This document shows, in pieces, positions 9,703-36,807 of a DNA stretch of 40,213 bases; position 1 is the stretch's first letter, and each line of letters opens with the position of its first letter. The position numbers and the translations under genes were made by a program. The notes beneath the pieces were generated by a model. It made no database searches, was not told the origin of the DNA, and saw only the letters and a list, made by a program, of their open reading frames with translations. The DNA is from Rhodovulum adriaticum (lineage in GTDB: Bacteria > Pseudomonadota > Alphaproteobacteria > Rhodobacterales > Rhodobacteraceae), in NCBI RefSeq assembly GCF_004345735.1, contig NZ_SLXL01000017.1, positions 1 to 40,213 on the forward strand, in the 5' to 3' direction.

Positions 9703-9887
9703 ATTGAGCGCCATCAACTCGCTTCGATCCGGAGTGTTGGTGATTTGGCGCTCCAAGAGCGTCGAATCCCAAATATCTGCTGAACGGGCGTTGAGATAGG
9801 TAAAAGCGGTGATGCGGCGGGCGCTTCGGACTGGCAGAGAACGACTGCCGGTTTTCTCGCTCGCCTTTCCTCGTTCTCCCGGGATTA
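9703..9887. other. Gap between the chimeric remnant and the flippase gene
   Basis: The stretch has no gene. It likely carries the promoter for the ABC flippase and the pse genes that follow, but no clear -35/-10 pair can be picked out. Confidence 0.3.
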
Positions 9888-11726: not shown

Positions 11727-11753
11727 TCTTTTCCAACGATCGCGGAACATTTT

Positions 11754-12752: not shown

Positions 12753-13903
12753 TGATCCCCTATGGTCGTCAAATCATCAGCGATGATGACATCGCGGCAG
12801 TTGCGGCCATTCTGCGGTCGGATTTTCTGACACAGGGGCCTGTCGGGCCGCGTTTCGAACAGGCAGTTGCAGAACGCGTTGGCGCAAATCATGCGGTGGC
12901 GGTCAATTCGGCGACATCCGCCCTGCACATTGCCTGCCTGGCGCTCGGCCTTGGGCCCGGTGATCTTCTCTGGACCTCTCCCATAACCTTCGTCGCCTCA
13001 GCCAATTGTGGGCGCTATTGCGGCGCAGACGTGGATTTCGTTGATATCGAGCCCGAAACGTTCAACATTTGCCCGAGTGCGTTGGCCGCAAAGCTTGAGG
13101 CCGCAGCCTGGGCAGGGCGCCTGCCCAAGGTCATCGTCGCGGTGCATATGTGCGGTCAATCGCCCGACATGGTTCGGATCGCAGACCTGGCCCGGGCCCA
13201 TGGGGTGCGCCTGATCGAGGATGCAAGCCACGCTATCGGTGCAGATTTCATGGGTGGGCCGGTGGGCGGGTGCACCTATTCCGACATCACCGTGTTCAGC
13301 TTTCATCCGGTCAAGATCATCACGACCGCAGAGGGTGGGATGGCCCTGACCAATGATCCAGAACTGGCGGCGCGGATGGAACGTCTGCGCAGCCACGGGA
13401 TCACCCGTGAGCCAGATTTGATGACGCATGCGCCGGACGGCCCGTGGTATTACCAGCAACTGGAGCTTGGGTGGAATTACCGCATGACGGAAATGCAGGC
13501 CGCACTGGGGTTGAGCCAGTTGGGTCAGCTTGACGCTTTTGTCGCCCGTCGTCGGGAACTTGCTGCGCGGTATGACGATGCACTGGCCGATCTGGCACTG
13601 AGGCGGCCCGGTCGCCAGGCAGGGGCCTGCTCTGCATGGCACCTTTACGTCATCCGGCTGGACGACCGGACGCGCCATCGTGGCGTGTTCGAGGCATTGC
13701 GCGCAGGGGGCATCGGCGTGAACCTGCATTACATCCCGGTCCACCTTCAGCCCTATTACCGCGAACTGGGCTTCGGTTCTGGCGATTTCCCCGTCGCCGA
13801 GGATTACTATGCGCGTGCCATCTCGATCCCGCTGCATGCGGGGCTCACGGATGATGAACAATCCAGTGTCGTTGACGCGATTTCGCAGGCGCTCTCGACG
13901 TGA
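12752..13903 (+). CDS. pseC: UDP-4-keto-6-deoxy-L-AltNAc 4-aminotransferase
   Basis: This PLP-dependent DegT/DnrJ-type aminotransferase transfers an amino group, usually from glutamate, to C4 of the PseB product. The 383-residue protein has Asp157 in LIEDASHAIG and the Schiff-base lysine Lys188 in FSFHPVKIITTAEGG. The start MIPYGRQIISDDDIAAV and the PITFVASANCGRYCGADVDF segment are typical of PseC. It overlaps pseB by one base and pseF by four. Confidence 0.95.
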   Translation: MIPYGRQIISDDDIAAVAAILRSDFLTQGPVGPRFEQAVAERVGANHAVAVNSATSALHIACLALGLGPGDLLWTSPITFVASANCGRYCGADVDFVDIEPETFNICPSALAAKLEAAAWAGRLPKVIVAVHMCGQSPDMVRIADLARAHGVRLIEDASHAIGADFMGGPVGGCTYSDITVFSFHPVKIITTAEGGMALTNDPELAARMERLRSHGITREPDLMTHAPDGPWYYQQLELGWNYRMTEMQAALGLSQLGQLDAFVARRRELAARYDDALADLALRRPGRQAGACSAWHLYVIRLDDRTRHRGVFEALRAGGIGVNLHYIPVHLQPYYRELGFGSGDFPVAEDYYARAISIPLHAGLTDDEQSSVVDAISQALST

Positions 13904-14592
13904 CTGTTTGTTTGATACCTGCGCGAGGCGGTTCCAAGCGAATTCCGCGGAAGAATATCCGCGAATTCTGCGGCAAGCCCATGATCGCCTGGTCGATCGA
14001 CGCAGCAAGAATGTCCGGCTGTTTTGATAGGATCGTGGTGTCTACCGATGACGATGAAATCGCCAGGGTAGCGCTCGACTGCAGTGCCGAAGTTCCCTTT
14101 TGTCGTCGTGCCGCGCTTGCCGATGACCATACGCCGACCGTCCCTGTCATTGCCGATGCAATCGACCAGTTAGGTTTGGCAGAGTGCACTCCGGTCTGCT
14201 GTCTTTACGCGACAGCGCCGTTTGTGGCTCCGGGAGATCTGCGCGCCGGATTCGAGAGGCTTGAAGAGAACAGCGCGCCCTTTGTGCTGGGTGTGACGAC
14301 CTTTGCCTTTCCCATTCAGCGCGCCTTGCGCCGAGATGCGTCGGGGAGAGTAGCGATGTTCGACCCCGCCCAGATGCAGACGCGATCTCAGGATCTCGAG
14401 GACGCTTGGCATGACGCTGGCCAGTTCTATTGGGCGCGCGCGGCAAGCTGGAAAAGCTGCAGCGGGATATTCGAGGCCGGCGCCGAGGGGCTGCCCTTGC
14501 CCCGGTACCGCGTTCAGGACATCGATACCGAAGAGGATTGGTGCCGGGCAGAATGGCTGATGCGGGCCATGCAATTGGGAAAGAACCCATGA
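13900..14592 (+). CDS. pseF: CMP-pseudaminic acid synthetase (cytidylyltransferase)
   Basis: This is the last step of the pathway, activating pseudaminic acid with CTP. The GTG start at 13900 overlaps the pseC stop. The 230-residue protein begins TVCLIPARGGSKRIPRKNIR, the CTP-binding motif of the NeuA/PseF family. IVVSTDDDEIA and the C-terminal RVQDIDTEEDW are also conserved, and the Asp pair in DIDTEEDW is placed to bind Mg. QFYWARA is typical of PseF. The length is normal, in contrast to the decayed cytidylyltransferase fragment at 9231. Confidence 0.94.
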   Translation: MTVCLIPARGGSKRIPRKNIREFCGKPMIAWSIDAARMSGCFDRIVVSTDDDEIARVALDCSAEVPFCRRAALADDHTPTVPVIADAIDQLGLAECTPVCCLYATAPFVAPGDLRAGFERLEENSAPFVLGVTTFAFPIQRALRRDASGRVAMFDPAQMQTRSQDLEDAWHDAGQFYWARAASWKSCSGIFEAGAEGLPLPRYRVQDIDTEEDWCRAEWLMRAMQLGKNP

Positions 14593-15701
14593 CCATCGCC
14601 TTCCGCGCCGATGCTTCGTTCGACATCGGGACCGGCCATGTGATGCGCTGCCTCACCTTGGCGTGCGCGTTGCGCGAGGCCGGGGCGGAGTGTTGCTTTG
14701 TTACCCGCGCGTTGCCGGGGCACCTTGCGGATCGTATCGCAAACGAGGGGTTCAGGGTCTCCTTGCTGACCACGCCACACGGGGCGGCGCCGGATGGGCC
14801 TCCTGTGCATGCCGCCTGGGCCGGGGTTTCCTGGATACAGGATGCGGCAGAGACGAAGGCCGCGCTTGCCGCCGATTCGCCGGACTGGCTGGTGATGGAT
14901 CACTACGCCTTTGATGCGCGCTGGCAGGCGGCGGCGCGACCCGAGGGTGCGAAATTGTTGGTGATCGACGATCTTGCCGACCGGCCGCACGAGTGCAATC
15001 TTTTGCTGGACCAGAACCTTGGGCGCGTGGCCGGGGATTACGATAGGCTGGTCCCGGCAACATGCCTGCGTCTGATCGGCCCGCGATACGCGGTGTTGCG
15101 CCCGGAATTCGCCGCCATGCGCGCGCAGGTGCTATCTGACCGGGCCGGGCGCGGGTTGCGGCATCTGCTGATCACCATGGGCGGGGTGGACAAGGCCGAC
15201 GCGACCTCAACCGTGCTAGAGGCGTTGCGTGGCATACCTCTTCCTGACCCCTTGCGCATCACCGTCATCATGGGGTCGCGCTCCCCCGCCCTCGACCGGG
15301 TGCGGCGGTTGGCGCAGGACATGCCTCGACCGACAGAGGTGGCCGTGGATGTCGCGGACATGGCCGCGCGGATGGCGACGGCCGACCTGGCCATCGGGGC
15401 GGCCGGCAGTACGACGTGGGAGCGGTGCTGTCTGGGGCTGCCCAGCATCATCGTGGAAGTGGCGGAAAACCAATCGGGCATTGCAAGGGCGATGACCAAG
15501 GCGGGCGCCGCGCTTGATCCCGGGCCGCTGCACGCCGCGGAGTTTGCGCGCAACCTGCAAGACGCGCTGATCCGTGCCGGCGATCCGGGTCGTCTGTCCG
15601 ACCTGTCGGAAAAAGCCGCCGGGGTCTGTGATGGTGAGGGCTGTGGCCGACTGATAGCCCAACTCGATCTTTGCTCAACCGTCAATAGGATTGTTTCTTG
15701 A
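14589..15701 (+). CDS. pseG: UDP-2,4-diacetamido-2,4,6-trideoxy-L-altrose hydrolase
   Basis: It removes UDP from the acetylated intermediate with inversion, before condensation with PEP. The ATG at 14589 overlaps pseF (ATGA). An earlier in-frame ATG at 14430 lies inside pseF and is rejected. The 370-residue product opens MTIAFRADASFDIGTGHVMR, with the general-base His17 known from Campylobacter PseG. The C-terminal half is GT-B-like (LLITMGGVDKADAT, ADLAIGAAGSTTWERCCLGL) and resembles MurG. It is somewhat longer than the Campylobacter enzyme. It is a cytoplasmic enzyme coupled to pseH downstream. Confidence 0.93.
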   Translation: MTIAFRADASFDIGTGHVMRCLTLACALREAGAECCFVTRALPGHLADRIANEGFRVSLLTTPHGAAPDGPPVHAAWAGVSWIQDAAETKAALAADSPDWLVMDHYAFDARWQAAARPEGAKLLVIDDLADRPHECNLLLDQNLGRVAGDYDRLVPATCLRLIGPRYAVLRPEFAAMRAQVLSDRAGRGLRHLLITMGGVDKADATSTVLEALRGIPLPDPLRITVIMGSRSPALDRVRRLAQDMPRPTEVAVDVADMAARMATADLAIGAAGSTTWERCCLGLPSIIVEVAENQSGIARAMTKAGAALDPGPLHAAEFARNLQDALIRAGDPGRLSDLSEKAAGVCDGEGCGRLIAQLDLCSTVNRIVS

Positions 15702-16240
15702 CTAACTTTGGCAACCTTCGCGTCCTAGAAGATACGGATTTGGAGTTGATCCGATCATGGCGCAACGCGCCTGAAGTCGCATCGAAAATGTATACGCGAC
15801 ACTATATCTCGGAATCAGAACACAAGCTCTGGTGGCAAAATGTCCGAGAGCGTGATGACCAAAGTTATTTCTTATATGAGAAAGCCAATATCCCACTGGG
15901 AGTTGTGAGTTTGAGTCAAATTGACACAATCAACAAGAATTGTTTTTGGGCGTTCTACGCAAGCCCGTGTGCGCCTCCTGGAACTGGTTCTAAGATGGAG
16001 TTTCTTGCCCTTGAACACGTTTTTGGTTTTTTGGGCATGAACAAGCTCTCCTGCGAAGTGTTGGCCTTCAATGAGCCTGTTATTAAGCTTCATAAGAAGT
16101 TTGGATTTCGGGAAGAGGGTAGATTTCGCGAGCATCATCGCATTGATGATAAGCACGTTGATATTATCCGTCTTGGCATGCTGGCCCGAGAATGGTCGGG
16201 CGCGCGCGAAGAAATGAAAGATCGCATTCATGGAAATTAG
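15698..16240 (+). CDS. pseH: GNAT N-acetyltransferase acting on the PseC product
   Basis: It transfers acetyl from acetyl-CoA to the 4-amino group of the PseC product. The TTG start at 15698 overlaps the pseG stop by four bases. The 180-residue protein has the GNAT pattern: LEDTDLELIRSWRN at the start, the NIPLGVVSL strand, and LACEVLAFN-like LSCEVLAFNEPVIKLHKKFG with FREEGRFREH near the end. The gene is visibly more AT-rich than its neighbours, suggesting a different source from pseB-G. By position and family it completes the pathway; direct proof of substrate is not in the sequence. Confidence 0.88.
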   Translation: MTNFGNLRVLEDTDLELIRSWRNAPEVASKMYTRHYISESEHKLWWQNVRERDDQSYFLYEKANIPLGVVSLSQIDTINKNCFWAFYASPCAPPGTGSKMEFLALEHVFGFLGMNKLSCEVLAFNEPVIKLHKKFGFREEGRFREHHRIDDKHVDIIRLGMLAREWSGAREEMKDRIHGN

Positions 16241-17312
16241 AAACCGCGCCGGTATGGGTCATCTAGCCATAGCTAAGCGCCCCATCGGCCCCGGCCACCC
16301 GCCCTATGTGATTGCCGAGATCTCGGCCAACCATAATGGCGACCTGGACCAGGCGCTGAGGATCATCGACGCTGCGCAAGCCGCCGGCGCGGATGCGGTC
16401 AAGATCCAGACCTATCGTCCCGATACGATCACGCTGAAATCCGACGCGCCAGAGTTCCAGATCACCGAGGGATTATGGGCCGGACGAACGCTTTACGACC
16501 TGTACGAGTGGGCGCATACCCCGTGGGAGTGGCACGAGGCCCTGTTTGCCCATGCCGCGCGGCGCGGCATCACCCTGTTTTCGTCGCCCTTCGATCCGAC
16601 GGCGGTGGACCTTCTGGAAGAGTTGGGTGCCCCGGCCTACAAGATCGCCAGCTTTGAGGCGGTGGACCTGCCATTGATCCGCTATGTGGCGTCCACGGGC
16701 AAGCCCATGATCATCTCGACCGGCATGGCCGATTTCGAAGAGATCACCGAGGCGGTGGAGGCCGCACGCTCTGGCGGGTGTAAAGAGCTGGCCCTGCTGC
16801 ATTGCGTTTCGGGCTATCCGGCACCGGCGGCGGACTATAACCTGGCGACGCTGCGCGATATGGCGGCACGGTTCGATTTGCCCGTGGGGTTGTCGGATCA
16901 CACGCTGGACAACACGACCGCGATCGCCAGCGTCGCACTTGGTGCCGCGCTGATCGAAAAGCACGTGACGCTCGACCGCAACGTGGGCGGACCTGATGAC
17001 AGTTTTTCGTTGGAGCCAGGCGAGCTCGCCGCCCTGTGCCGCGATGCAAGGACCGCATGGGACGCGTTGGGCAAGGTGGACTATGGCCGCAAGTCGAGCG
17101 AGCAGGGCAACGTGAAATTCCGAAGGTCGTTGTATTTCGTCCAGGATATGAAAGCGGGCGACGAGATAACCGAGGCGTGTATCCGCAGTGTCCGGCCGGG
17201 ATATGGCCTGGCCCCCAAATGGACCGACGATATTATCGGTCGCAGGGTGGCGCGTGATGTCAAAGCGCATATGCCGGTGCAATGGGAGTTACTCGGGAAG
17301 AATGACTGTTGA
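16230..17312 (+). CDS. pseI: Pseudaminic acid synthase
   Basis: It condenses PEP with 2,4-diacetamido-2,4,6-trideoxy-L-altrose to give pseudaminic acid. The 360-residue protein has the NeuB-type TIM barrel (PYVIAEISANHNGDLDQALR near residue 26; KIASFEAVDLPLIRYVASTG; PVGLSDHTLD). A C-terminal SAF/antifreeze-like domain starts near residue 295 (RRSLYFVQDMKAGDEIT, ending near RRVARDVKAHMPVQWELL). The start at 16230 overlaps pseH by 11 bases; Met at 16251 is an alternative. With this gene the six-step route from UDP-GlcNAc to CMP-Pse is complete. Confidence 0.95.
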   Translation: MEIRNRAGMGHLAIAKRPIGPGHPPYVIAEISANHNGDLDQALRIIDAAQAAGADAVKIQTYRPDTITLKSDAPEFQITEGLWAGRTLYDLYEWAHTPWEWHEALFAHAARRGITLFSSPFDPTAVDLLEELGAPAYKIASFEAVDLPLIRYVASTGKPMIISTGMADFEEITEAVEAARSGGCKELALLHCVSGYPAPAADYNLATLRDMAARFDLPVGLSDHTLDNTTAIASVALGAALIEKHVTLDRNVGGPDDSFSLEPGELAALCRDARTAWDALGKVDYGRKSSEQGNVKFRRSLYFVQDMKAGDEITEACIRSVRPGYGLAPKWTDDIIGRRVARDVKAHMPVQWELLGKNDC

Positions 17313-22268: not shown

Positions 22269-22331
22269 TCTGAGTTTTGCTTGGCACCGGCAGCAGATTG
22301 ACCTGCTGGCCGCAGGGTTATGGAGTTTAGA

Positions 22332-23207
22332 ATGATTTCCTCTGTCTCGAAAAGGATTGGTCACGCCCTTGAAGCGCGGCTTCTTTCGCCATCGGTTTAT
22401 GTGAAAAAAGATTTTTATCGGCGCACAGGGCGACGCCTTGATCTCGCGCATCCTACCACATTCAGTGAAAAAATTCAATATTTGAAGCTTTATAACAGGG
22501 ATCCTGATCTTACCAATCTTGTTGACAAGATTGAGGTAAAAAATTTTATCAGGAATGAAGTGGGAGAGAAGTACACGATCCCATCGGCAGCCATATTTTC
22601 AGGTGTTGACGAAATCAACCTGGAGACACTTCCGCGACGATGCGTTCTGAAGGCCACTCACGGTTCGGGTTGGAATTTCTTCATCAAGAATAAGGATCAG
22701 GTTGATCTAAGGGAAATCAGGGAATTTTTCAAAAAGTGGCTTGGGAAGAGTTATTATATGTATTCGAAGGAGTGGGCGTATAACGGAGTTCGTCCGCGGA
22801 TAGTCTGCGAGCAATTGCTTCTGGACGAAAGCGGCAATGTGCCTGATGATTACAAAGTGTTTTGCTTTAATGGCCGCCCAAAATACGTTCAGGTCGATCA
22901 CGATCGTTTCACATTTCACAAAAGGGCTTTTTTCGATGTGAAATGGAGAAAACAACCTTTTACGATAGGATATCCTTTTTCTGAGAAGCAGATTGTCGCC
23001 CCGGTTTGTCTTGATGAGATGCTTCATGTAAGCGAGACCATAGCAGGTATCGCGCCCTTTGTGAGGGTTGATTTTCTCGTGCACGAGGAGCGTCCGTTTA
23101 TTGGAGAGCTGACATTTTACCCAGGCAATGGTATGGAGAAATTTATGCCCGAAAAATGGGATTCGGATCTCGGCGCTTGCCTTGACGTGTCGGAAATAAA
23201 CGCCTGA
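22332..23207 (+). CDS. TupA-like ATP-grasp protein
   Basis: The ATG at 22332 has a perfectly spaced GGAG, so it is preferred over the ATG at 22320. The 291-residue product shows the TupA-like ATP-grasp pattern: LAHPTTFSEKIQYLKLYNRD, LVDKIEVKNFIRNEVGEKYT, CVLKATHGSGWNFFIKNK with the ATP-binding lysine, DDYKVFCFNGRPKYVQVD and GELTFYPGNGMEKF. TupA family members occur in teichuronopeptide and surface-glycan loci, where they are thought to ligate carboxylates to amines. It is the first of four ATP-grasp proteins in the locus. Codon use is strongly AT-rich, unlike the flanking genes. Confidence 0.8.
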   Translation: MISSVSKRIGHALEARLLSPSVYVKKDFYRRTGRRLDLAHPTTFSEKIQYLKLYNRDPDLTNLVDKIEVKNFIRNEVGEKYTIPSAAIFSGVDEINLETLPRRCVLKATHGSGWNFFIKNKDQVDLREIREFFKKWLGKSYYMYSKEWAYNGVRPRIVCEQLLLDESGNVPDDYKVFCFNGRPKYVQVDHDRFTFHKRAFFDVKWRKQPFTIGYPFSEKQIVAPVCLDEMLHVSETIAGIAPFVRVDFLVHEERPFIGELTFYPGNGMEKFMPEKWDSDLGACLDVSEINA

Positions 23208-24304: not shown

Positions 24305-24307
24305 ACC

Positions 24308-26589: not shown

Positions 26590-26596
26590 CCCTCCC

Positions 26597-27793
26597 ATGA
26601 TTCTTCATCCAGAAAAGACAATGCAGGGTGTGCGGATCGTCCATGCGGCGACCAGTGCCAACATGCTGACAGCGTTCGGTCGCGTAATGGCGGATCGACT
26701 GAACGAAGAGGGCGCCGAGCTTTACTTCGTGGCCTCGTCCCGTCCCATTTACGGGCGCCCCGCTGACAAGACTGAACTCGCCGCGATGGGGGGCACGCCC
26801 CTCACGCTGCCGCTTGAAAATAATATCCGTCCCTGGAACATCGTCGCGAATACCTATCGGTTCTGGCGTATTCTGCGCCGCCTGCGGCCCTCGGTCGTTC
26901 ACACGCGCGCCTCCGTTATGGGGATCGTGGGGCGGCTCGCGGCCTGGTTGGCTGGCGTTCCTTGCGTCGTGCACCACCAGGACGATCTTTACGCACGGGA
27001 AGAGCAGTTATCGCCGCGCAGACGGCGGCAAGCTGCCGCGCTGGAGCGATGGTTCGCCAATCGCAGCGATTGCACGTTCGTTGTCAGCGATGCCGTTTCG
27101 GAGGCGGCTCAACGCCTTGGGTTTGATGCGACGAAGGTCATCAATGTCGGACATGACTTGAGCAAAACGATCCGGAACGGTGCCGTCATCCCGCGCCCCG
27201 CGCGGGATGACGTGGCGCTGTTTGCGAAACTCGGCATCAGGGAGGACAACTTTCTGGTCGGCTCGGTGACCCGGCTGGAGGCGCATAAGGGCGTTGATAC
27301 GCTTGTTCGAGCCGCAGCGCAGGTGGTGGAGGACGCGCCGCAGGTCCGTTTCCTTGTTCGCGGCCGTGGGCCGGCGAAGGCACAGCTTGAAGAGATGATC
27401 GCAGAATGCGGGCTAAGAGAGCGGTTTTTCCTCGTGGAGGACTGGCTGTCTGATCGAGAGCTTGTCGAGCTATACAAGTCTTTCGATCTCTTTGCGCTGC
27501 CAACACGACGTGAAGGTTTCGGCATGGCATTTGCCGAGGCCATGTTCCTCGGTGTCGTGCCGATTGCTCCCGATATTCCCCCGGTCAACGAGGTCGTCCG
27601 GCCGAAGACCGGGCTTTTGGTTCCACCGACCGATACGGCATTTGCCGAGGCCATTCTCTGGTCCGCGAAGCATCCCGCCGAGATTGCCAGCCTGCGCCAG
27701 ACAGCCATCGCCGACGCAGAGGCGCGATGGGGTGGAACGCGCGCCGCGGACGCTGTTATCGCCACCTATACCCGCCTTCTCAAGGGGTCTTGA
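26597..27793 (+). CDS. GT4-family glycosyltransferase
   Basis: The 398-residue protein has an N-terminal GT-B domain (VRIVHAATSANMLTAFGRVM; VVHTRASVMGIVGRLAAWLA) and a donor domain (VGSVTRLEAHKGVDTLVRAA; LPTRREGFGMAFAEAMFLGV with E-x7-E near 306). The EGFGMAFAEA box is typical of WcaL/RfaB-like GT4 members. No good ribosome site precedes 26597; a downstream ATG at 26621 could be the true start. Its stop overlaps the next start (TGATG), so it links the transferase set to the deacetylase/ATP-grasp module. Confidence 0.85.
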   Translation: MILHPEKTMQGVRIVHAATSANMLTAFGRVMADRLNEEGAELYFVASSRPIYGRPADKTELAAMGGTPLTLPLENNIRPWNIVANTYRFWRILRRLRPSVVHTRASVMGIVGRLAAWLAGVPCVVHHQDDLYAREEQLSPRRRRQAAALERWFANRSDCTFVVSDAVSEAAQRLGFDATKVINVGHDLSKTIRNGAVIPRPARDDVALFAKLGIREDNFLVGSVTRLEAHKGVDTLVRAAAQVVEDAPQVRFLVRGRGPAKAQLEEMIAECGLRERFFLVEDWLSDRELVELYKSFDLFALPTRREGFGMAFAEAMFLGVVPIAPDIPPVNEVVRPKTGLLVPPTDTAFAEAILWSAKHPAEIASLRQTAIADAEARWGGTRAADAVIATYTRLLKGS

Positions 27794-28932
27794 TGTCAAT
27801 TGCACGGCTGATCGTTGACAACCTGCGTCATGCGCGGGGCTGGTCCAGTGACGAAAAACTCCTGGTCATCAATGTGGATGATTACGGAAATGTGCGGCTT
27901 GCCAGCGCCAGGGCGCGCGCGGAACTGGAGGCACGGATCACCGGGTTTGGCGGGTATATGGATTGTTTCGACGCCCTCGAGACACGCGAGGATCTAGAGG
28001 CGCTTTTCGAAGTCCTGGAGGGGGTGCGCGATTGCGCGGGTGAACCCGCCGTGATGACGGCCTATGCTCTCTCCGCCAATCCGGATTTCGAACGAATCCG
28101 GGCTGAGCGGGTATATTCCTATGAGCCTCTGCCGACGACCTTTGCACGTTGTGCCGCCCAGGCGCCTGCGGCCTATGAGGGCGCGTGGGAGCTCTGGCGA
28201 GACGGCGAAAGGGCGGGGATATTCCGGCCACAGTTTCATGGGCGCGAACATGTCAACGTGGCGCTGATCGAGACCAAGCTGGCCCAGGGGCATGCCGATC
28301 TGGAGGCCAACCTGGCCCTTGAAAGCATGGCCGGGCTGAGCGGGGTAGAAGAGATGCCTGGCGTGGGCTTCACGCATGCTTTCGGGGGAGACAACCCGAA
28401 CCAGTTGGACCGGCAGAGAGAGATATTGCGCGACGGAGTGAAGCTTTTTGAATCGGTTTTCGGCTTTACGTCGAAAACGTTCACGCCACCGGCACAAAAG
28501 CTGCCGCGCGCCTTGGTCAACGACCTGCGGCCGATGGGGGTCCTGACCCTGGACCGGCCTTTCATGCAGAGACCCGCGCGCGGTCGATTCCCGCGCCTGC
28601 CGCGTCTCAGCTTTCCGACAGCCCCGCAAAAGAGGCGACCGGGTTGCATCGTGCGGACCGTCAGCTTCGAGCCGGGGCAGGGCAGCTATTCCGACCCCAT
28701 CGGACATGCCCTGCGCCAGATCGAGCAGGCCTTTCGCTGGCGCAAGCCCGCCGTGGTTTCGTCGCATCGGGTGAATTTTGCGGGCCATATCGACGCGGAA
28801 AACCGGCGCAAGGGCCTTCGCGCACTTGACGAGCTCCTACACCGGATCGTTGCGACCTGGCCCGACGTGCGTTTCATCGGCGCAGATGACCTGGCGCAAA
28901 CAATGCTTGGGAAAGGTCACGAGGCACCATGA
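27793..28932 (+). CDS. Deacetylase-like protein, paralogue 1
   Basis: The start at 27793 has AAGGGG five bases upstream and overlaps the preceding stop. The 379-residue protein has a NodB-like Asp pair in LLVINVDDYGN (Asp29, Asp30) and the motif RPQFHGREHVNV (His149, His153). Near the end it reads AVVSSHRVNFAGHIDAENRR. The same three boxes occur in the 387-residue protein at 32,230, with low identity between them. The barrel and Asp/His layout resemble polysaccharide deacetylases, which remove N- or O-acetyl groups with a metal. The spacing is not that of textbook NodB, so another hydrolytic role is possible. No signal peptide is seen, so it is likely cytoplasmic. Confidence 0.6.
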   Translation: MSIARLIVDNLRHARGWSSDEKLLVINVDDYGNVRLASARARAELEARITGFGGYMDCFDALETREDLEALFEVLEGVRDCAGEPAVMTAYALSANPDFERIRAERVYSYEPLPTTFARCAAQAPAAYEGAWELWRDGERAGIFRPQFHGREHVNVALIETKLAQGHADLEANLALESMAGLSGVEEMPGVGFTHAFGGDNPNQLDRQREILRDGVKLFESVFGFTSKTFTPPAQKLPRALVNDLRPMGVLTLDRPFMQRPARGRFPRLPRLSFPTAPQKRRPGCIVRTVSFEPGQGSYSDPIGHALRQIEQAFRWRKPAVVSSHRVNFAGHIDAENRRKGLRALDELLHRIVATWPDVRFIGADDLAQTMLGKGHEAP

Positions 28933-29936
28933 AACGTCTGCTCTATCTGGCCTACTATCTTCGTCGCATGAATTGGGACTTGTTGCGCCGTTTCATGCGG
29001 CATGTCGAGGCAAGGAATGGCATATCGCCCTCGCGCCAGGTCGTGGCAATGGTTGTGAATTCGCTTCGTTACAATGTCTCGCCACTCGAGGTGTATCAGT
29101 TCGGCTTTTTCGGCGCCGACAAAATAGAAAAGGGCCGCTGGGCGGGGACCGGGACCATGTACGAATTCCAGCGCCACGCGAACCCACCGGGAGAACGAGC
29201 TATTCTCGATGACAAGAGGAAGTTCCACGACGCCTATCGAAAGTTCTTTCGTCACGAGGTTGTTACGCTTCAGGAAATGGAAGAGGATCGGACCCTTGCT
29301 TTACGAATGCTTGAACGGTATTCCGAGTTAGTGTTTAAGCCGGCACAAGGGAATTGCGGCGGCGGGCTTGTTTTCGCGGCCAGTGCGCAATTGAACGCTG
29401 AAAACCTGCCGGACTGGATGCGCGCACGGGGCTTAGACCTGGTCGAGGAAAGCATCCGTCAACATCCCGATTTTCAGGCGCTCTCGCCCTCCGCCGTGAA
29501 TACCGTGAGAATATTCACGTGCCTCGATTCCAGCGACCGTTGCCAGATCCTGGGATGCCGGCTTCGAATTTCGGTTAATTCCTCGGTTGATAACATGGCG
29601 GCCGGCAACATGGCCGCACCGGTCGACGAGGTCACCGGCAGGGTGTGCGGCCCGGGCGTCTATTCCGACATCACCAAGACGCCCGAAACCGTGCATCCTG
29701 TCACCGGAGTTCCGATCGAGGGCTTTCAAATCCCTTATTGGCCCGAAAGCCTGGCTCTCGTGCGTGAAGCAGCTGTCCTTCACCCGCAGAACCGATCAAT
29801 CGGCTGGGATATCGTGATCACGCCGGATGGGCCGGGGCTCATCGAGGGCAATCACGATTGGTGCAAGCTGGTCTGGCAATTGCCAGTCGGGCAGGGGCTC
29901 AAGCATATGCTGGGGGAGTGCGCTTTGAATGGCTGA
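28929..29936 (+). CDS. Sugar-transfer-associated ATP-grasp protein (ATPgrasp_ST type)
   Basis: The 335-residue product has the ATPgrasp_ST pattern: KFHDAYRKFFRHEVVTLQEM, LVFKPAQGNCGGGLVFAASA with the ATP lysine, SPSAVNTVRIFTCLDSSDRC, and WDIVITPDGPGLIEGNHDW with the metal-binding Glu/Asn. AVNTVRIFT is the family hallmark. ATP-grasp enzymes form amide or thioester bonds via acyl phosphates. The natural substrates of this subfamily are unknown; its name reflects repeated linkage to sugar-transfer genes. It overlaps the preceding gene by four bases and the next by eight. Confidence 0.8.
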   Translation: MKRLLYLAYYLRRMNWDLLRRFMRHVEARNGISPSRQVVAMVVNSLRYNVSPLEVYQFGFFGADKIEKGRWAGTGTMYEFQRHANPPGERAILDDKRKFHDAYRKFFRHEVVTLQEMEEDRTLALRMLERYSELVFKPAQGNCGGGLVFAASAQLNAENLPDWMRARGLDLVEESIRQHPDFQALSPSAVNTVRIFTCLDSSDRCQILGCRLRISVNSSVDNMAAGNMAAPVDEVTGRVCGPGVYSDITKTPETVHPVTGVPIEGFQIPYWPESLALVREAAVLHPQNRSIGWDIVITPDGPGLIEGNHDWCKLVWQLPVGQGLKHMLGECALNG

Positions 29937-31128
29937 GAACGCCTATCCTGCGGCCTTTGTCACCTATGGATGGTGCCGATCTGCCTATACCGTGGTGCGG
30001 TCGCTCGCGGCACGGGGTGTCGAAGTCCATGTCGGCGACAGCTCTCCCTTTGCCATGTGCCGCGTGTCGCGCCACACGGCAAGTTTCACCCGTTTGCCTG
30101 ACTTCTTTGCTGAACCGGAAGCCTATGTGAGAGTCCTTGGGGACGCGCTCGTCAAAACAGGGGCAAAGATCCTTTTGCCTTGTTTTGAAGATGTCGAGCT
30201 TGTCATCCGCCATAGAGAGCAGCTGCCTGCCGACGTCTGGGTGGCTGTTCCCGATCTCCAGAACTGGGCGATAGCCGAAGACAAACTCGACTACATCGAG
30301 CGCGTTGGTGCCGCAGGGTGCCCTGTGCCCGTGACATACCGGGTCGAAAGCCGGACAGAGGTGCAGCGTCTAGCGGGCATGTTGGAGTTCCCCGTAGTGC
30401 TCAAGGTGCGGATGGGAAATGGCGCGCGCGGTGTCGAGATCGTTGAGACTGCTGATGAGCTGGAACCGCGCTTTTTCGCCCTGATCGAGGAATTCGGTCT
30501 CCCCGAAGGTCGCTGGCCGATTGTCCAACAGCATCTGCGCGGCCGAAAGTTCAAGCTCGACGGCGTCTTTCGCCACGGCCAAAGCCTTGCCACGAGTGTC
30601 TTCGAGATCCTGCGGTGCAAGGGTGCGGGCAAGTTCGGCACTTCGACCTTCCGGCGGACAGTCGATTTTCCCCAGATCACACGCGATGCCATTCGGGCGA
30701 TGGAAGCGCTGAACTGGCATGGTATGTTCAACACCGACTGGATCTGCGATGAAACCGGAACGGCGCGGTTGATAGACATCAATGGTCGGCTCAGCGGGGC
30801 GGTCGGTGTCCCGTTCGCGGCTGGTATGGATTTGCCTTGGATCTGGTATCAGGTCTCGGCAGGTCTTGATGAGATCCAGGCCGAAGATGCGCGCCCGGGC
30901 GTTCATGTCCGCTGGCTGGTCGGCGACGGGATCGCGCTGGTGGAACATGCGATGGACGGGAAATTTCGGGAGGCGGCGAAAATCCTCGTGCCCCGGCCCG
31001 GTTGCAGGCATGACGATTTCTCGCTCACCGACCCTTTGCCACTCATGGCAGAGGGGCTCGACTATTTCATGAAATTCGCGCGGGCCCGAGGCTCTACGCG
31101 TCCGATGACGGAAGGAATGGTGCGCTGA
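29929..31128 (+). CDS. ATP-grasp protein, carbamoyl-phosphate-synthetase-like type
   Basis: The 399-residue protein has an N-terminal Rossmann pre-grasp domain (YPAAFVTYGWCRSAYTVVRS; GAKILLPCFEDVELVIRHRE) and an ATP-grasp core: FPVVLKVRMGNGARGVEIVE carries the ATP lysine, IVQQHLRGRKFKLDGVFRHG, and RLIDINGRLSGAVGVPFAAG supplies the metal-binding D-x-N. Proteins of this layout ligate amino acids or other carboxylates to amines. The eight-base overlap with the previous gene argues for one transcript and matched amounts. The substrate cannot be read. Confidence 0.78.
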   Translation: MAENAYPAAFVTYGWCRSAYTVVRSLAARGVEVHVGDSSPFAMCRVSRHTASFTRLPDFFAEPEAYVRVLGDALVKTGAKILLPCFEDVELVIRHREQLPADVWVAVPDLQNWAIAEDKLDYIERVGAAGCPVPVTYRVESRTEVQRLAGMLEFPVVLKVRMGNGARGVEIVETADELEPRFFALIEEFGLPEGRWPIVQQHLRGRKFKLDGVFRHGQSLATSVFEILRCKGAGKFGTSTFRRTVDFPQITRDAIRAMEALNWHGMFNTDWICDETGTARLIDINGRLSGAVGVPFAAGMDLPWIWYQVSAGLDEIQAEDARPGVHVRWLVGDGIALVEHAMDGKFREAAKILVPRPGCRHDDFSLTDPLPLMAEGLDYFMKFARARGSTRPMTEGMVR

Positions 31129-31147
31129 TAGCGCGCCCGATATCACC

Positions 31148-32230
31148 ATGAAAATCGCGATCCACGACAGCCCCAATGGTTTCCATCCGCGCTGGAGAGC
31201 CTATTGCCAAGAGCTCGGCATTCCTTTCAAGCGCGTGGACTGTCACGCCTCGGACATCATTGAGCAACTCGCCGATTGTGACGGCCTGATGTGGCATCAC
31301 AGCCAAGGGAACCCGCGCGACCTCATCGCGGCCAAGGCCGTGCTCTCGGCGTTGGAACATGCTGGCGTGCCGGTCTTTCCGGACTGGCGAACGGGATGGC
31401 ACTTCGACGACAAGGTTGCGCAGAAATACCTGTTCGAGGCGATTGGCGCCCCATTGGTGCCGACCTGGGTCTTTCTGGACCGGCAGAGTGCCCTCGACTG
31501 GGTCGAGAAGACCGACTTTCCCAAGGTGTTCAAGCTGCGGGGCGGTGCGGGGTCGGCCAATGTGCGCCTCGTGCGCAGCCGGGGGGAAGCGCGGCGGCTC
31601 GTGCGGCAGGCCTTCGGCCGCGGTTTTCCGAATTACGACGCCTGGGGCAGTCTGAAAGAACGCTGGCGGCGCGTCCGGCTGGGCAAGGCAAGCCCGGCGG
31701 AGGTTGCGAAGGGGGTCGCCCGCCTCGTCCATCCGCCGACCTTCTCCCGCGTGCTGGGACGAGAGCGCGGCTATGCGTATTTCCAGGAGTTCATGCCGGA
31801 TAATGCCTCGGACACGCGGATCATCGTGATCGAGGGAAAGGCCTTCGCGCTCAAGCGTTTTGTCCGGGCGGGCGATTTCCGCGCATCGGGAAGTGGTGAT
31901 TTCGCCTATGGGCGGGAGGAGTTCGATGAACGCTGCGTTCGGATCGCTTTCGATGTCACGGACCGGCTCGGTGCAAGCTGCGCCGCGTATGATTTCGTTT
32001 TCGATGCTGAAAAGACCCCTCTGTTGGTCGAAATCAGCTATGGGTTCCTCCCGGACGGTTACGACGCGTGCCCCGGATACTGGACACCGGACCTGACTTG
32101 GCATCCGGGCGCCTTCAATCCCCAGGGATGGATGGTGGAGGCTCTTCTCGAGCAGATTGAGCATCGCCGGGGCGATTTGCGCGGAGCGGCTGTCAGTGCG
32201 AGCAGCATGTATTCGATTGCATCTTCCTGA
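31148..32230 (+). CDS. ATP-grasp protein, RimK/D-Ala-ligase-like type
   Basis: The 360-residue product starts MKIAIHDSPNGFHPRWRAYC, with a pre-grasp domain (DCDGLMWHHSQGNPRDLIAA). The ATP-grasp core follows: VAQKYLFEAIGAPLVPTWVF, FPKVFKLRGGAGSANVRLVR with the ATP lysine, FMPDNASDTRIIVIEGKAFA and PLLVEISYGFLPDG. The RIIVIxGKAFAxKRFVR segment is RimK-like. It is not closely similar to either neighbouring ATP-grasp protein, so the three are not recent duplicates. It starts 19 bases after the previous stop and ends in a TGATG overlap with deacetylase-like paralogue 2. Confidence 0.75.
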   Translation: MKIAIHDSPNGFHPRWRAYCQELGIPFKRVDCHASDIIEQLADCDGLMWHHSQGNPRDLIAAKAVLSALEHAGVPVFPDWRTGWHFDDKVAQKYLFEAIGAPLVPTWVFLDRQSALDWVEKTDFPKVFKLRGGAGSANVRLVRSRGEARRLVRQAFGRGFPNYDAWGSLKERWRRVRLGKASPAEVAKGVARLVHPPTFSRVLGRERGYAYFQEFMPDNASDTRIIVIEGKAFALKRFVRAGDFRASGSGDFAYGREEFDERCVRIAFDVTDRLGASCAAYDFVFDAEKTPLLVEISYGFLPDGYDACPGYWTPDLTWHPGAFNPQGWMVEALLEQIEHRRGDLRGAAVSASSMYSIASS

Positions 32231-33393
32231 TGACGTTCCAGACTCTTAAAAAATACGCGGCGCCCTATTACCGCAACCTCGGCGGCTGGCGCACACGGCG
32301 GAAGATCCTCGTGATCGAAAGCGACGATTGGGGCAGCATCCGCATGCCCTCGCGACAGGTCTACGAGCGGTGCCTGAAAGCGGGGTATCCCGTCGATCGA
32401 ACATGGTATGAGCGGTATGACTCGTTGCTCAGCGAAGATGATCTTGAATTGCTGTTCGGTGTTCTGTCGTCCTTCCGGGATGCCGAGGGACGCCATCCCG
32501 TCATCACGGCGAATGTCATCGTCGGAAACCCGGATTTCGCGGCGATCGAAAAGTCGGATTTCCAAAACTACCATTACGAACCCATAACCGAGACCTTTCA
32601 GCGTTACCCGAAACACCATCGCTGTTGGTCGCTTTGGCAGGAAGGACAGAGGCACGGCGTCCTGATGCCCCAGTTCCACGGTCGTGAGCATCTGAATGTC
32701 GCGATGTTCATGTCGGCCCTGCGGGATGGAAATCCCGACATGAAGTTCGCTTTCGACAACAGAATGCCGGGCTGCATCCCGAAAGGTCCGCAGCGCGGTC
32801 CCAATTTATACGTCGAAACCACCCGCTTCAGGTCGAAAGCTGAAAAGGCCGCCGTGTTGGATGCAACCCTTGAGGGTCTGGATCTATTCGAGAATCTTTT
32901 CGGCTTTCGTTCCAGGACTTTCATTCCGACGAACTATGTCTGGAGCAGCGATTTCAACGCAGCCGTCCGTCACGCGGGTGTTGAAGCCTATCAAGGTATG
33001 CGCTTGATGAAGGAACAACAGTCGGCTGGCACGAGCCACCCGGTCCGACGCAGGCTTGGGGACCGGAACGACTTCGGCCAATTCTACCTCGTGCGGAATG
33101 CTAATTTCGAACCATCTCAGAGTGCTGAGCCTCGTTTGCGCGCCGTCGACAGGTGTCTGCACGATATTCAGGCCGCCTTTCAGATGGGAAAACCCGCAAT
33201 CATCTCGTGCCACCGCCTCAACTTCTGCGGGTTCATTGATGAAGCCAACCGCGACCAGAACCTGAAGGCGCTGAAGGCCATGCTTACTGCGGTACTGCGC
33301 AAATGGCCGAACGTCGAGTTCGTGACGTCGGAGGAGATGCTGGATATCCTGAAGAGCACCCCGCGCGAAGGCCAAGGTGCGTCGTGGGCATGA
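32230..33393 (+). CDS. Deacetylase-like protein, paralogue 2
   Basis: The 387-residue protein has ILVIESDDWGSIRMPSRQ (Asp32, Asp33), MPQFHGREHLNVAMF (His150, His154) and AIISCHRLNFCGFIDEANRD. These boxes sit at nearly the same positions as in paralogue 1 at 27,793. Members with the ESDDWGSIRMPS start are annotated as polysaccharide-deacetylase-like in many genomes with no proven activity. It is a likely soluble protein. Together with paralogue 1 it brackets the three ATP-grasp genes. The overlap with the upstream gene by one base supports coupling. The two paralogues may act on different amides or esters. Confidence 0.65.
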   Translation: MTFQTLKKYAAPYYRNLGGWRTRRKILVIESDDWGSIRMPSRQVYERCLKAGYPVDRTWYERYDSLLSEDDLELLFGVLSSFRDAEGRHPVITANVIVGNPDFAAIEKSDFQNYHYEPITETFQRYPKHHRCWSLWQEGQRHGVLMPQFHGREHLNVAMFMSALRDGNPDMKFAFDNRMPGCIPKGPQRGPNLYVETTRFRSKAEKAAVLDATLEGLDLFENLFGFRSRTFIPTNYVWSSDFNAAVRHAGVEAYQGMRLMKEQQSAGTSHPVRRRLGDRNDFGQFYLVRNANFEPSQSAEPRLRAVDRCLHDIQAAFQMGKPAIISCHRLNFCGFIDEANRDQNLKALKAMLTAVLRKWPNVEFVTSEEMLDILKSTPREGQGASWA

Positions 33394-33399
33394 ACCCTC

Positions 33400-34170
33400 G
33401 TGTACGAGCTCATCAAGTTTCTTTCCCTCTTCACCTATCCTCTCGGCGTCACATTCCTGCTCGCGGGCGCCGCAGTTCTGTGCCGTGCGCTGGGACGGAG
33501 GCGGCTTGCGGCTGGACTTGGAGCGGTGGCTTTCATCTGGCTCTGGGTCTGGTCGATGCCTGTGACGTCGGAACGTCTGCGCGGCGGGTTGGAGGCGCGG
33601 TATGCCAACTTGCCCGTAGGGCAGGCGCCAGAGGCGGACGCGATTGTCGTTCTTGGGGGCGCCTTCAGCACGAATGAGGCTTGGCCTTACCCCAATGCCA
33701 GCGGATCGATTGATCGTTACTGGCACGGGGCGCGGCTCTACCATGCCGGGCGCGCGGACCTTATCGTTCTGACTGGGGGCGGATCTCCGAACCGCCCCGA
33801 CAAGCTGACCGAGGCCGAGGCGGGCGCGCTTTTTCTGGTCGATTTGGGGGTACCGCCATCCGCGATCGTTCTCGATACCGCCTCGCGCACCACGCGGGAT
33901 CACACCGATTATCTGGAGCCGATCTTGCGGGAGCGAGGTCTTGAGCAGTTGCTGCTTGTCACATCGGCAACACACATGCGGCGCGCCGAAGCGGTGTTCC
34001 GTCGGGCGGGCTTCGATGTCGTGCCGGTGGCAACAGACTTCTCGGTTGGCCCGGACCCCGTCAAGGGCCCGCGCCGGTACATGCCGAGTGTTGGTGCCCT
34101 CGGTGCCAGCACGGCAGTTATTCACGAATATCTCGGCTATTGGTTCTATCGCCTCCTCGGCAAGGTGTGA
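33400..34170 (+). CDS. DUF218/YdcF-like membrane-anchored protein
   Basis: A GTG start six bases after the previous stop gives 256 residues. Two N-terminal membrane helices (LFTYPLGVTFLLAGAAVLCR; LGAVAFIWLWVWSMPVTS) precede a soluble DUF218 domain: EADAIVVLGGAFS, RADLIVLTGGGS, ALFLVDLGVPPSAIVLDTAS and LLLVTSATHMRRAEAVFRRA. ElyC, SanA and YdcF share this domain; ElyC affects lipid-carrier-dependent envelope synthesis in E. coli. The domain should face the periplasm. As the last gene of the module it may act on the carrier-linked product. Its biochemical activity is not known. Confidence 0.8.
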   Translation: MYELIKFLSLFTYPLGVTFLLAGAAVLCRALGRRRLAAGLGAVAFIWLWVWSMPVTSERLRGGLEARYANLPVGQAPEADAIVVLGGAFSTNEAWPYPNASGSIDRYWHGARLYHAGRADLIVLTGGGSPNRPDKLTEAEAGALFLVDLGVPPSAIVLDTASRTTRDHTDYLEPILRERGLEQLLLVTSATHMRRAEAVFRRAGFDVVPVATDFSVGPDPVKGPRRYMPSVGALGASTAVIHEYLGYWFYRLLGKV

Positions 34171-34348: not shown

Positions 34349-35524
34349 ATGCTTGATAATGCTCGGCCGCCCGAAGCCTTGGCTTCGGCGCTCGTTGAAT
34401 TCGTCCGTTCTCTTTATGAGACGGACGAGTTCATCCCCCTGCATGTCCCCACACTCGGAGAGGCGGAAGCGCACGCCGTGTCCGAGGCGGTGAGGAGCGG
34501 CATGATCTCGACTGTCGGCCCACAGGTTGGCGCCTTCGAGGAAAAACTCGCAAAGATTACCGGGGCCCGGCATGTCGTCGCGACGGTGAACGGCACGGCA
34601 GCGCTGCATCTCGCGCTTCTTGGGGGCGGAGTGCAGCCGGGTGATGAGGTGATCACCCAGGCCCTGACCTTTGTCGCGACCGGCAATGCCATTCGCTATT
34701 GCGGGGCAGAGCCGGTGTTTCTCGACGTGGATCGCAACGGGTTGGGCTTGTCGGTCGAAAGTGTCGAGCGGTTCCTGGAGGAAAACGCCCTTCGCGAGAA
34801 GGACGGCAGCGTGATCAATCGGCAAACCGGACGTCCCATCCGCGCCTGCTTGCCGATGCACACGAACGGGCATCCCGGCGACATGGCGCGGATGTCCGAG
34901 ATCTGCGCGCGCTGGGGCCTTGCCTTGGTTGAGGACGCGGCAGAGGCGCTCGGGAGTTATCGGGACGGTCTGCATGCAGGGCGCGTCGGGCAATGCGGTA
35001 TCCTGAGCTTCAACGGCAACAAGATCATCTCGACGGGTCAAGGCGGCGCGGTGATAACCGATGATGCCGCGATTGCGGCACGGGTCAGGCACCTGGCGGC
35101 GGTCGCAAAGTGCAACCACCCTTGGCGCTATGAGCACGATGCTATCGGCTACAATTACCGACTGCCTGCGCTTAATGCGGCTCTTGGCCTCGTGCAACTC
35201 GATCGTCTGCCGGCCTTTTTGGAAAGCAAACGCGCGATTGCCGCCGTCTATACCGACTGGTTCGAGGAACACGACCTGCCGTCGGTCCGTGAACCGGTCG
35301 GGGCAAGCTCCAATTTCTGGTTCAACGCGTTTCTGGTGGACTCGATCGGGACGCGCGATGCCGTCTTGGAGTGGACCAACGCGCGGGGCGTCATGACACG
35401 ACCCCTCTGGGACCCTCTCAACACGCTGCCGCCCTACCGCGATTGCCAAACCGACGACCTCTCGAACACGAAGTGGTTGTTCGAGCGTCTGATCAATGTC
35501 CCCTCAACGCCGAGACTCAAATGA
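34349..35524 (+). CDS. LegC-family 4-aminotransferase (DegT/DnrJ type)
   Basis: This 391-residue PLP enzyme has Asp196 in LALVEDAAEALGSY and Schiff-base Lys225 in LSFNGNKIISTGQGG. The N-terminal extension ALASALVEFVRSLYETDEFI and MISTVGPQVGAFEEKLAKIT are typical of the LegC group, which aminates the 4-keto product of a UDP-GlcNAc 4,6-dehydratase. The product would be UDP-4-amino-4,6-dideoxy-GlcNAc. The matching dehydratase lies at 36,857. No acetyltransferase, epimerase, LegI or LegF accompanies it in the window. The sugar may therefore stay amino or be modified by another enzyme. It overlaps the next gene by four bases. Confidence 0.85.
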   Translation: MLDNARPPEALASALVEFVRSLYETDEFIPLHVPTLGEAEAHAVSEAVRSGMISTVGPQVGAFEEKLAKITGARHVVATVNGTAALHLALLGGGVQPGDEVITQALTFVATGNAIRYCGAEPVFLDVDRNGLGLSVESVERFLEENALREKDGSVINRQTGRPIRACLPMHTNGHPGDMARMSEICARWGLALVEDAAEALGSYRDGLHAGRVGQCGILSFNGNKIISTGQGGAVITDDAAIAARVRHLAAVAKCNHPWRYEHDAIGYNYRLPALNAALGLVQLDRLPAFLESKRAIAAVYTDWFEEHDLPSVREPVGASSNFWFNAFLVDSIGTRDAVLEWTNARGVMTRPLWDPLNTLPPYRDCQTDDLSNTKWLFERLINVPSTPRLK

Positions 35525-36807
35525 CCTGTCTTCCCGAAGATCCCCGCATTGCCATCATCGGTCTGGGCTATGTCGGGCTGCCCTTGGCGGCGGCCTTTGC
35601 CCAAGCCTATCCGGTGGTCGGTTTCGACATCGATCCCATGCGGATCAAGGAACTCGAGGCCGGGCGCGACCGGACGCGTGAGCTTACGGATGCGGAACTC
35701 GCCGAGGCGGTGGCATCTGGACTACGCTTTACCGATGACCTCGCGGCGCTGGATGGGTGCAATACATTCATCGTGACCGTGCCGACTCCCATCGATGCAC
35801 ATCGCCGCCCGGATCTACGCCCTCTGCTCTCGGCGAGCGAAACGGTTGGGCGGATCATTCGGCCCGGATCGGTGGTGGTTTTTGAATCGACCGTCTATCC
35901 GGGGGCGACCGAAGAGGACTGTATTCCGGTCATCGAGCGGGTCTCTGGCCTGAAATACAATGAAGATTTCTTCGGAGGCTACAGCCCGGAACGGATCAAT
36001 CCCGGCGACAGGGAGCACCGCGTCGCCGATATCGTCAAGGTGACCAGCGGCTCCACACCTGAGGCGGCGGATTTCGTTGACGCGCTTTATGCCCGGATCA
36101 TCAAGGCGGGCACACACAAGGCCGAAAGCATTGCGGTGGCCGAGGCCGCCAAGGTGATCGAGAATACGCAGCGCGACGTGAACATCGCACTCGTCAATGA
36201 GCTTGCTATCGTTTTCGAGCGCTTGGGGCTTGATACGGAAGCTGTTCTCACGGCCGCGGGGACCAAGTGGAATTTCCTGCCCTTCCGCCCAGGGCTGGTT
36301 GGTGGTCACTGCATCGGTGTCGACCCCTATTATCTGACACACAAGGCGCAGGAGGTGGGCCACCACCCCGAAATGATCCTGGCGGGGCGTCGGTTGAACG
36401 ACGGCATGGGCGCCCATGTGGCCGACCGGGTGGCCAAGGGGATGATCCGCCGCGGCATGTGCCTTCCCCAGAGCCGTGTGCTTATCCTTGGCCTTGCCTT
36501 CAAGGAGAATACACCGGATCTGCGCAACACCCGCGTCGTCGATATCGTCGATGCGCTTTCCGAATATGGGGTGAGCGTCGACATTCACGATCCCGAAGTC
36601 GATGCGGCGGAGGCAAAGCAGGAATACGGGCTCGTCCTCGTGCCGCATCCGGAGCCCAAAAGCTATGATGCCGTCATCCTGGCCGTGGCGCACAAGTGTT
36701 TCGTCGATGGTGGCGCTGCAAAGCTGCGAGCCTGGATGAAACCGGATGGCTATCTGTTCGACGTCAAGTATGGCCTCCCAGCCGCATCGGTAGACGCGCG
36801 CTTGTGA
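35521..36807 (+). CDS. UDP-HexNAc 6-dehydrogenase (TviB/WbpA-like)
   Basis: The 428-residue protein oxidises C6 of a UDP-N-acetylhexosamine (or similar) to the uronate using two NAD. It has the NAD motif IAIIGLGYVGLPLAAAF, the central ENTQRDVNIALVNELAIVFE, and catalytic Cys264 in GLVGGHCIGVDPYYLTHKA. C-terminal LILGLAFKENTPDLRNTRV is the UDP-binding domain. The HCIGVDPYYL form of the Cys box is typical of UDP-GlcNAc/GalNAc dehydrogenases rather than UDP-Glc dehydrogenases. The ATG at 35,521 is preferred, as an earlier ATG at 35,371 lies inside the aminotransferase gene. With the epimerase at 38,904 it could yield a UDP-GalNAcA-type donor. Confidence 0.88.
   Translation: MTCLPEDPRIAIIGLGYVGLPLAAAFAQAYPVVGFDIDPMRIKELEAGRDRTRELTDAELAEAVASGLRFTDDLAALDGCNTFIVTVPTPIDAHRRPDLRPLLSASETVGRIIRPGSVVVFESTVYPGATEEDCIPVIERVSGLKYNEDFFGGYSPERINPGDREHRVADIVKVTSGSTPEAADFVDALYARIIKAGTHKAESIAVAEAAKVIENTQRDVNIALVNELAIVFERLGLDTEAVLTAAGTKWNFLPFRPGLVGGHCIGVDPYYLTHKAQEVGHHPEMILAGRRLNDGMGAHVADRVAKGMIRRGMCLPQSRVLILGLAFKENTPDLRNTRVVDIVDALSEYGVSVDIHDPEVDAAEAKQEYGLVLVPHPEPKSYDAVILAVAHKCFVDGGAAKLRAWMKPDGYLFDVKYGLPAASVDARL

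Follow-up and report, generated by a model that had tools for sequence, protein, structure and literature searches.

Bacterial polysaccharides often carry amide-linked amino acids and other acyl groups, and to our knowledge the genes responsible for them are mostly unassigned. The 2009 survey by Iyer et al. reportedly predicted that ATP-grasp genes near glycosyltransferases attach amino acids or related groups. The holdfast system of Caulobacter includes a CE4-type deacetylase, HfsH, and a GNAT-type acyltransferase, HfsK. Here we analyze a block of five genes, lettered A to E in their order along contig NZ_SLXL01000017.1 of the purple bacterium Rhodovulum adriaticum (host genome of 3.35 Mb in 36 contigs); the window is the whole stretch of DNA analyzed, 40,213 nucleotides. 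Two CE4/NodB-like hydrolases, A and E, bracket the three ATP-grasp proteins B, C, and D, and in a sister species the place of C is taken by a protein with a predicted GNAT fold.

The block resembles several described systems and departs from each. Like the CE4/NodB deacetylases HP0310, ArnD, and WbmS, it combines the Asp, HxxxH, and late His motifs with the corresponding predicted fold (for E) in a polysaccharide locus, but A and E, known here from sequence and a model, lack a Pfam or NCBIfam match and are adjacent to ATP-grasp genes. Like the C-terminal TupA-like ATP-grasp domain of Cj1438 from the Campylobacter jejuni capsule, it points to glycan-associated amide formation, and the window holds a TupA-like gene of its own. 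The Cj1438 domain amidates the C6 carboxylate of glucuronate in the chain (PMC11800397, PMC11800379), acting after the sugar has been incorporated and not on UDP-glucuronic acid (UDP-GlcA) (PMC11800397). B, C, and D differ from it in being of other subtypes, the Campylobacter sugar supplies the carboxylate, and the passages describing it mention no CE4 partner. HfsH and HfsK are predicted to modify lipid-linked or polymerized glycan (PMC6372794), which is the likeness to the present block, whereas no ATP-grasp partner is mentioned in the passages on them. The individual protein kinds are familiar or distantly related to familiar ones, while the A-to-E set, in which a sister species has an enzyme of a different type in place of one attaching enzyme, seems to be undescribed. 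Among the papers listed in full-text searches of an open-access library, none described a set of two CE4-like and three ATP-grasp proteins; as subscription papers and preprints were outside the scope of this search, it is weak evidence of novelty.

All five open reading frames (ORFs) that the first-pass annotation had placed at 27793..33393 were present there on the + strand, encoding proteins of 379, 335, 399, 360, and 387 residues. The close coupling described for them, overlaps of 1 to 8 bases apart from one 19-base gap, agreed with the measured junctions: A and B overlap by 4 bases, B and C by 8, and D and E by 1, with the gap of 19 bases between C and D. Coupling of this kind extends beyond the block, however. 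The upstream GT4-type glycosyltransferase gene (26597..27793, + strand) shares 1 base of its stop with the start of A, 6 bases separate E from the gene after it, and the pseudaminic acid genes farther upstream overlap one another as closely as A to E do. Because short overlaps are frequent along the locus, they do not delimit the five genes as a module. None of the five proteins has a strongly hydrophobic 19-residue stretch (Kyte-Doolittle maxima of 0.63 to 1.42, with A at 0.63).

The kinship of A and E, proposed earlier from shared motifs, was confirmed by alignment, in which 121 of 387 columns are identical (31%; E value of 2e-47), and the quoted motifs occur in both. Gene A (P0001; 27793..28932, + strand) encodes DDYG at residue 29, HGREH at 149, and SSHR at 323; gene E (P0005; 32230..33393, + strand) encodes DDWG at 32, HGREH at 150, and SCHR at 326. 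The Asp-Asp pair, HxxxH, and the late His are invariant in seven of seven aligned A/E homologues, so that both proteins carry, in sequence, the residues of the CE4/NodB metal site. The predicted structure of E is a deformed beta/alpha barrel as in the CE4/NodB superfamily, and its Foldseek matches include the deacetylases HP0310 (3qbu), ArnD (8t0j), and WbmS (3hft). Family searches were less informative. Neither protein matched a curated family (Pfam at E ≤ 1, NCBIfam at E ≤ 0.1), and hence neither reached the score of a deacetylase family; a sequence search of solved structures gave nothing for A and no credible match for the A/E profile, and a PHROGs search of both gave nothing (best, 0.092). 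The motifs in A and E, together with the model of E, support their identification as CE4-type deacetylase-like hydrolases, presumed to be metal dependent. Among their distant relatives, six of the seven measured differ from A and E in having a hydrophobic stretch close to the N terminus, and the two that were compared with Pfam matched no family at E ≤ 0.1. In a crude pattern search, five proteobacterial loci with distant A/E relatives held a second ORF with CE4-type motifs.

The three ligase genes belong to different ATP-grasp subtypes, as had been claimed, since each exceeds the cutoff of a different model. Gene B (P0002; 28929..29936, + strand) encodes a sugar-transfer-associated ATP-grasp protein (ATPgrasp_ST, PF14397; 2e-46, residues 79 to 328), with 158.8 bits against a cutoff of 31.4 and model positions 5 to 273 of 278 covered. 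Gene C (P0003; 29929..31128, + strand) encodes an ATPgrasp_Ter/CPSase-like protein, matching PF15632 at 1.3e-10 (41.6 bits; cutoff, 29.1) and ATP-grasp_3 (PF02655) at 5.3e-7 (30.3 bits; cutoff, 23.2). Gene D (P0004; 31148..32230, + strand) encodes a RimK-like protein that passes PF08443 by a small margin and over part of the model (23.1 bits; cutoff, 21.0; positions 79 to 163 of 188); against the RimK-family glutamate ligase model TIGR00768 it reached 1.9e-10 and 40.6 bits, below the cutoff of 143.4. Among solved structures, the sequence of C found weak matches to ATP-grasp carboxylases (best, 2.5e-4), that of D found weak ATP-grasp matches only, and that of B found no credible match. A fourth ATP-grasp gene lies outside the interval annotated before, at 22320..23207 on the + strand, and is TupA-like (PF14305; 198.6 bits; cutoff, 25; 1.5e-58), which brings the locus to four ATP-grasp subtypes. 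It is the only one of the four with a TupA-like domain of the Cj1438 C-terminal type; PF14305 was absent from the family matches of B, C, and D. The gene that follows it (23207-24304) has no Pfam match at E ≤ 0.1; by eye it resembles sulfotransferase genes.

The nearest named relative found, R. bhavnagarense (NZ_SLXU01000017.1), has the gene order A-B-(GNAT)-D-E. The window is collinear with it over 21782-29923 (94.7%) and then from 31036 onward, and C falls in the break. In its place (locus positions 8143-8896) lies a gene for a 200-residue protein whose predicted structure has a GNAT fold and matches GNATs that include PseH and FdhC. Between this gene and D, a stump of 31 codons that is 84% identical to C is left; C has thus been replaced in the sister species. 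Because a GNAT-fold protein took over the slot, an amine acceptor for the C step is supported by the model of that protein, and amine acylation by both is the simplest explanation for the exchange of an ATP-grasp for a GNAT. E is also affected in R. bhavnagarense, as its 3′ third differs from that in the window and from that in a metagenome-assembled genome (MAG) of Thiorhodococcus. It is followed there (locus 11152-12220) by an ATPgrasp_ST gene that is divided between two frames and interrupted by a stop. Genes of the CE4-like and ATP-grasp kinds are adjacent in three arrangements: A-B, D-E (the latter also in Thiorhodococcus), and E of R. bhavnagarense with the broken ATPgrasp_ST gene.

The reading that we prefer is that A to E form a cytoplasmic glycan-tailoring cassette, probably for sugars of the surface coat, within a locus for a lipid-linked polysaccharide. 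In it, A and E would act as metal-dependent CE4-type hydrolases that take N-acetyl (or similar) groups off amino sugars, most likely on an undecaprenyl-linked repeat unit, and the ATP-grasp ligases would then make new amide bonds. C, and probably also B or D, would join an amino acid or other carboxylate to the freed amine. As a result, one or two sites in the repeat would carry a different acyl group in place of N-acetyl, and the chemistry of the C step would be exchangeable in evolution, being carried out by an ATP-grasp here and by a GNAT-fold protein in R. bhavnagarense. We infer the substrates, the lipid-linked state of the glycan, the location, the order of action, and the pairing of ligases with hydrolases from the features described above. 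The predicted fold of E, the conserved motifs of the hydrolases, the three ATP-grasp subtypes, the lack of strongly hydrophobic stretches in A to E, the replacement of C, and the three arrangements of neighboring CE4-like and ATP-grasp genes speak for this reading. In our judgment there is an even chance that A and E N-deacetylate amino sugars of a lipid-linked repeat and that C, along with B, D, or both, adds other carboxylates to the freed amines. A more detailed version is tentative and falls short of that: the deacetylase-ligase pairs A-B and E-D may strip N-acetyl groups from two amino sugars of the lipid-linked repeat and put other acyl groups in their place, and the third position, C, may swap ATP-grasp and GNAT between species and so change surface chemistry.

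How widely the set occurs bears on this proposal. The five-gene order, whose recurrence in other genomes the first-pass annotation had set as a test, was found again only in part: as A-B-(GNAT)-D-E in R. bhavnagarense and as D-E in one Thiorhodococcus MAG, and in no other sampled genome. Narrow profiles of two or five sequences detected A/E in one genome among 149 of the family and one among 289 of the class (the window's own in both cases), in 2 of 16 of the genus, and in 3 of 398 of the phylum, the window's own included. A wider profile, used for this count only, was run on 321 genomes of Gammaproteobacteria, the class to which the Thiorhodococcus MAG belongs, and detected them in 16, with the MAG included. 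D was found in 1 of 378 genomes of the phylum, its own. C was found in 2 of 16 genomes of the genus, one with only the 31-codon stump; the family sample (148 genomes) again gave two, the second of them at 25% identity. Scoring in the large samples was limited to four to six first-look candidates per genome, so distant members may be missed. Neighborhoods were compared using all ORFs of at least 80 residues at 20 loci with A/E relatives, where A/E themselves, as a control, were recovered in 20 of 20; homologues of B, D, or TupA occurred only in R. bhavnagarense and Thiorhodococcus. The breadth of the A/E family in Gammaproteobacteria was considered as a sign of a general deacetylase/ATP-grasp system and rejected, as the fetched flanks of the 18 other loci held no B, C, D, or TupA homologue. 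A D-E-DUF218 order in Thiorhodococcus, suspected by eye, was dropped when tblastn gave no significant match. At six distant A/E loci read by eye, the neighbors include glycosyltransferases and, in some, sulfotransferase-like genes.

Mobile elements were also searched. The plasmid collection held no relative of A, D, E, or the GNAT-like protein and no DNA match to the block, and 36 pattern matches in viral contigs yielded no confirmed case. Relatives of B and C occurred in 14 and 47 plasmid records, respectively. Among eight records whose surroundings were read (one without annotation there), an annotated polysaccharide deacetylase lay 5 to 7 kb away on the other strand in two and was adjacent in none, and these are not used as support. 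On a Nitratidesulfovibrio plasmid (6989-12524), near exosortase genes, two acyltransferase-type genes lie between a C relative annotated as hypothetical and a further ATP-grasp gene; one of the pair carries the annotation heparan-alpha-glucosaminide N-acetyltransferase.

The narrow distribution, together with the gene replacement at C, the mosaicism at E, and the equally tight coupling all along the locus, would fit another explanation, namely that cassette shuffling in a fast-changing polysaccharide locus made neighbors of five genes that share no pathway. However, D and E stay together in Rhodovulum and in the Thiorhodococcus MAG, D being kept in both the R. bhavnagarense and the Thiorhodococcus loci, and A-B is common to both Rhodovulum species at 77 to 100% identity in 60-base steps. 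We consider mere shuffling very improbable.

The surroundings of the block support a glycan-building context. Directly downstream of E, after a gap of 6 bases, is a gene for a DUF218/ElyC-like protein (33400..34170, + strand; PF02698, 1.1e-30). It is followed by a LegC-family sugar aminotransferase gene (34349..35524, + strand; TIGR04181, 464.8 bits; cutoff, 420), a possible source of free amines, and by a nucleotide sugar dehydrogenase gene closely resembling TviB (35416..36807, + strand; TIGR03026, 379.9 bits; cutoff, 189.8), a possible source of uronate carboxylates. The score of the latter with the TviB model (567.8) is below the cutoff of 592; its start is not fixed, and the stretch as read overlaps the LegC gene. 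Upstream, at 11754..17312 on the + strand, lie pseudaminic acid genes (PseB-like, PseC, PseF, PseG-like, PseH, and PseI). PseC, PseF, PseH, and PseI are above their NCBIfam cutoffs, and the PseB-like gene, compared with Pfam only, matches Polysacc_synt_2. The PseG-like stretch matches no Pfam family at 1e-5, and we take it to be PseG-like from its position among the genes. GT4-type glycosyltransferases, capsule-synthesis-type proteins, an ATP-binding cassette (ABC) transporter, and a polyprenyl glycosylphosphotransferase-like protein (170.3 bits, below its cutoff) are also present in the locus. The frame at 9235-9888, which seems interrupted, resembles by eye the start of a cytidine monophosphate (CMP)-sugar cytidylyltransferase, with an SKGSERVPRKN-type motif. 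Next to it (7622-9235) is a gene for a 537-residue protein whose N-terminal half is like 4-hydroxy-2-oxovalerate aldolases (91.2 bits, below the cutoff of 229); it lies near the polysaccharide genes and may make an unusual precursor.

The LegC-family gene allows a further explanation, in which the ATP-grasp proteins acylate the 4-amino group made by the aminotransferase while A and E act elsewhere, in trimming or quality control. A crude motif scan, run without a positive control on the 77 + strand ORFs of at least 80 residues in the window, found no hexapeptide-repeat N-acetyltransferase, which would leave the LegC amine without an evident capping enzyme there. As the scan covered the window, such an acetyltransferase may sit elsewhere in the genome, and this explanation accounts neither for two hydrolases beside the ligases nor for the D-E adjacency in another class. 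We regard it as improbable.

The earlier proposal that hydrolases expose amines to which ligases add carboxylates thus holds as far as deacetylase-like A and E, ATP-grasp B to D, a glycan context, and an amine acceptor for C are concerned, and meets a competitor in the precedent for uronate amidation by ATP-grasps. Several further points count against it. First, the best Foldseek match of the E model is a GH57 enzyme, not a deacetylase, and the model was built on five sequences, with a predicted local distance difference test score (pLDDT) below 50 at residues 34 to 41 and 331 to 336, beside two of the motifs. Second, the GNAT-fold model is a single-sequence prediction of modest confidence (pLDDT of 60.8), and the 200-residue protein matches no Pfam family at E ≤ 0.1, with a best NCBIfam match (0.015; 15.3 bits) far below the cutoff. 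Third, the A-to-E set looks like a rare arrangement, not a widespread pathway. No homologue of B, C, D, or TupA was found in the fetched flanks of the 18 other loci with distant A/E relatives (three of them shorter than 10 kb), and ATPgrasp_ST matches in genomes of such relatives were either on a different contig or at a distance of over 2 Mb. Around 13 of 20 ATPgrasp_ST matches, no A/E relative or CE4 motif (0/13) lay within about 4 to 6 kb, where the B control was recovered in 13 of 13. Fourth, the LegC-type aminotransferase could supply a free amine in place of a hydrolase. Fifth, the last residue of the acidic motif is Ser in D (LVEIS) but Asn in B and C. Finally, a biochemically characterized TupA-like ATP-grasp amidates a uronate carboxylate and not an amine (PMC11800397).

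This precedent is the starting point of the competing explanation, that the ATP-grasps couple amines or amino acids to sugar carboxylates, either of pseudaminic acid or of a uronate derived through the TviB-like dehydrogenase, while the hydrolases A and E separately leave free amines on different sugars. The TupA-like gene and the uronate-type dehydrogenase in the locus are in its favor. RimK-type ligases, moreover, typically activate the carboxylate of the acceptor. It fits less well with the takeover of the C slot by a GNAT-fold protein, which suits an amine acceptor at least for C. We consider it possible but doubtful as an account of B to D. Both processes may also hold in the same locus, with the TupA-like gene doing the amidation.

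With hydrolases and ligases together and one ligase naturally replaced, the block gives a genetic handle on how acyl groups are installed and changed on bacterial glycans. It is also a source of glycan-modifying enzymes, and A and E are a test object for a deacetylase-like family beyond the searched coverage of Pfam and NCBIfam.

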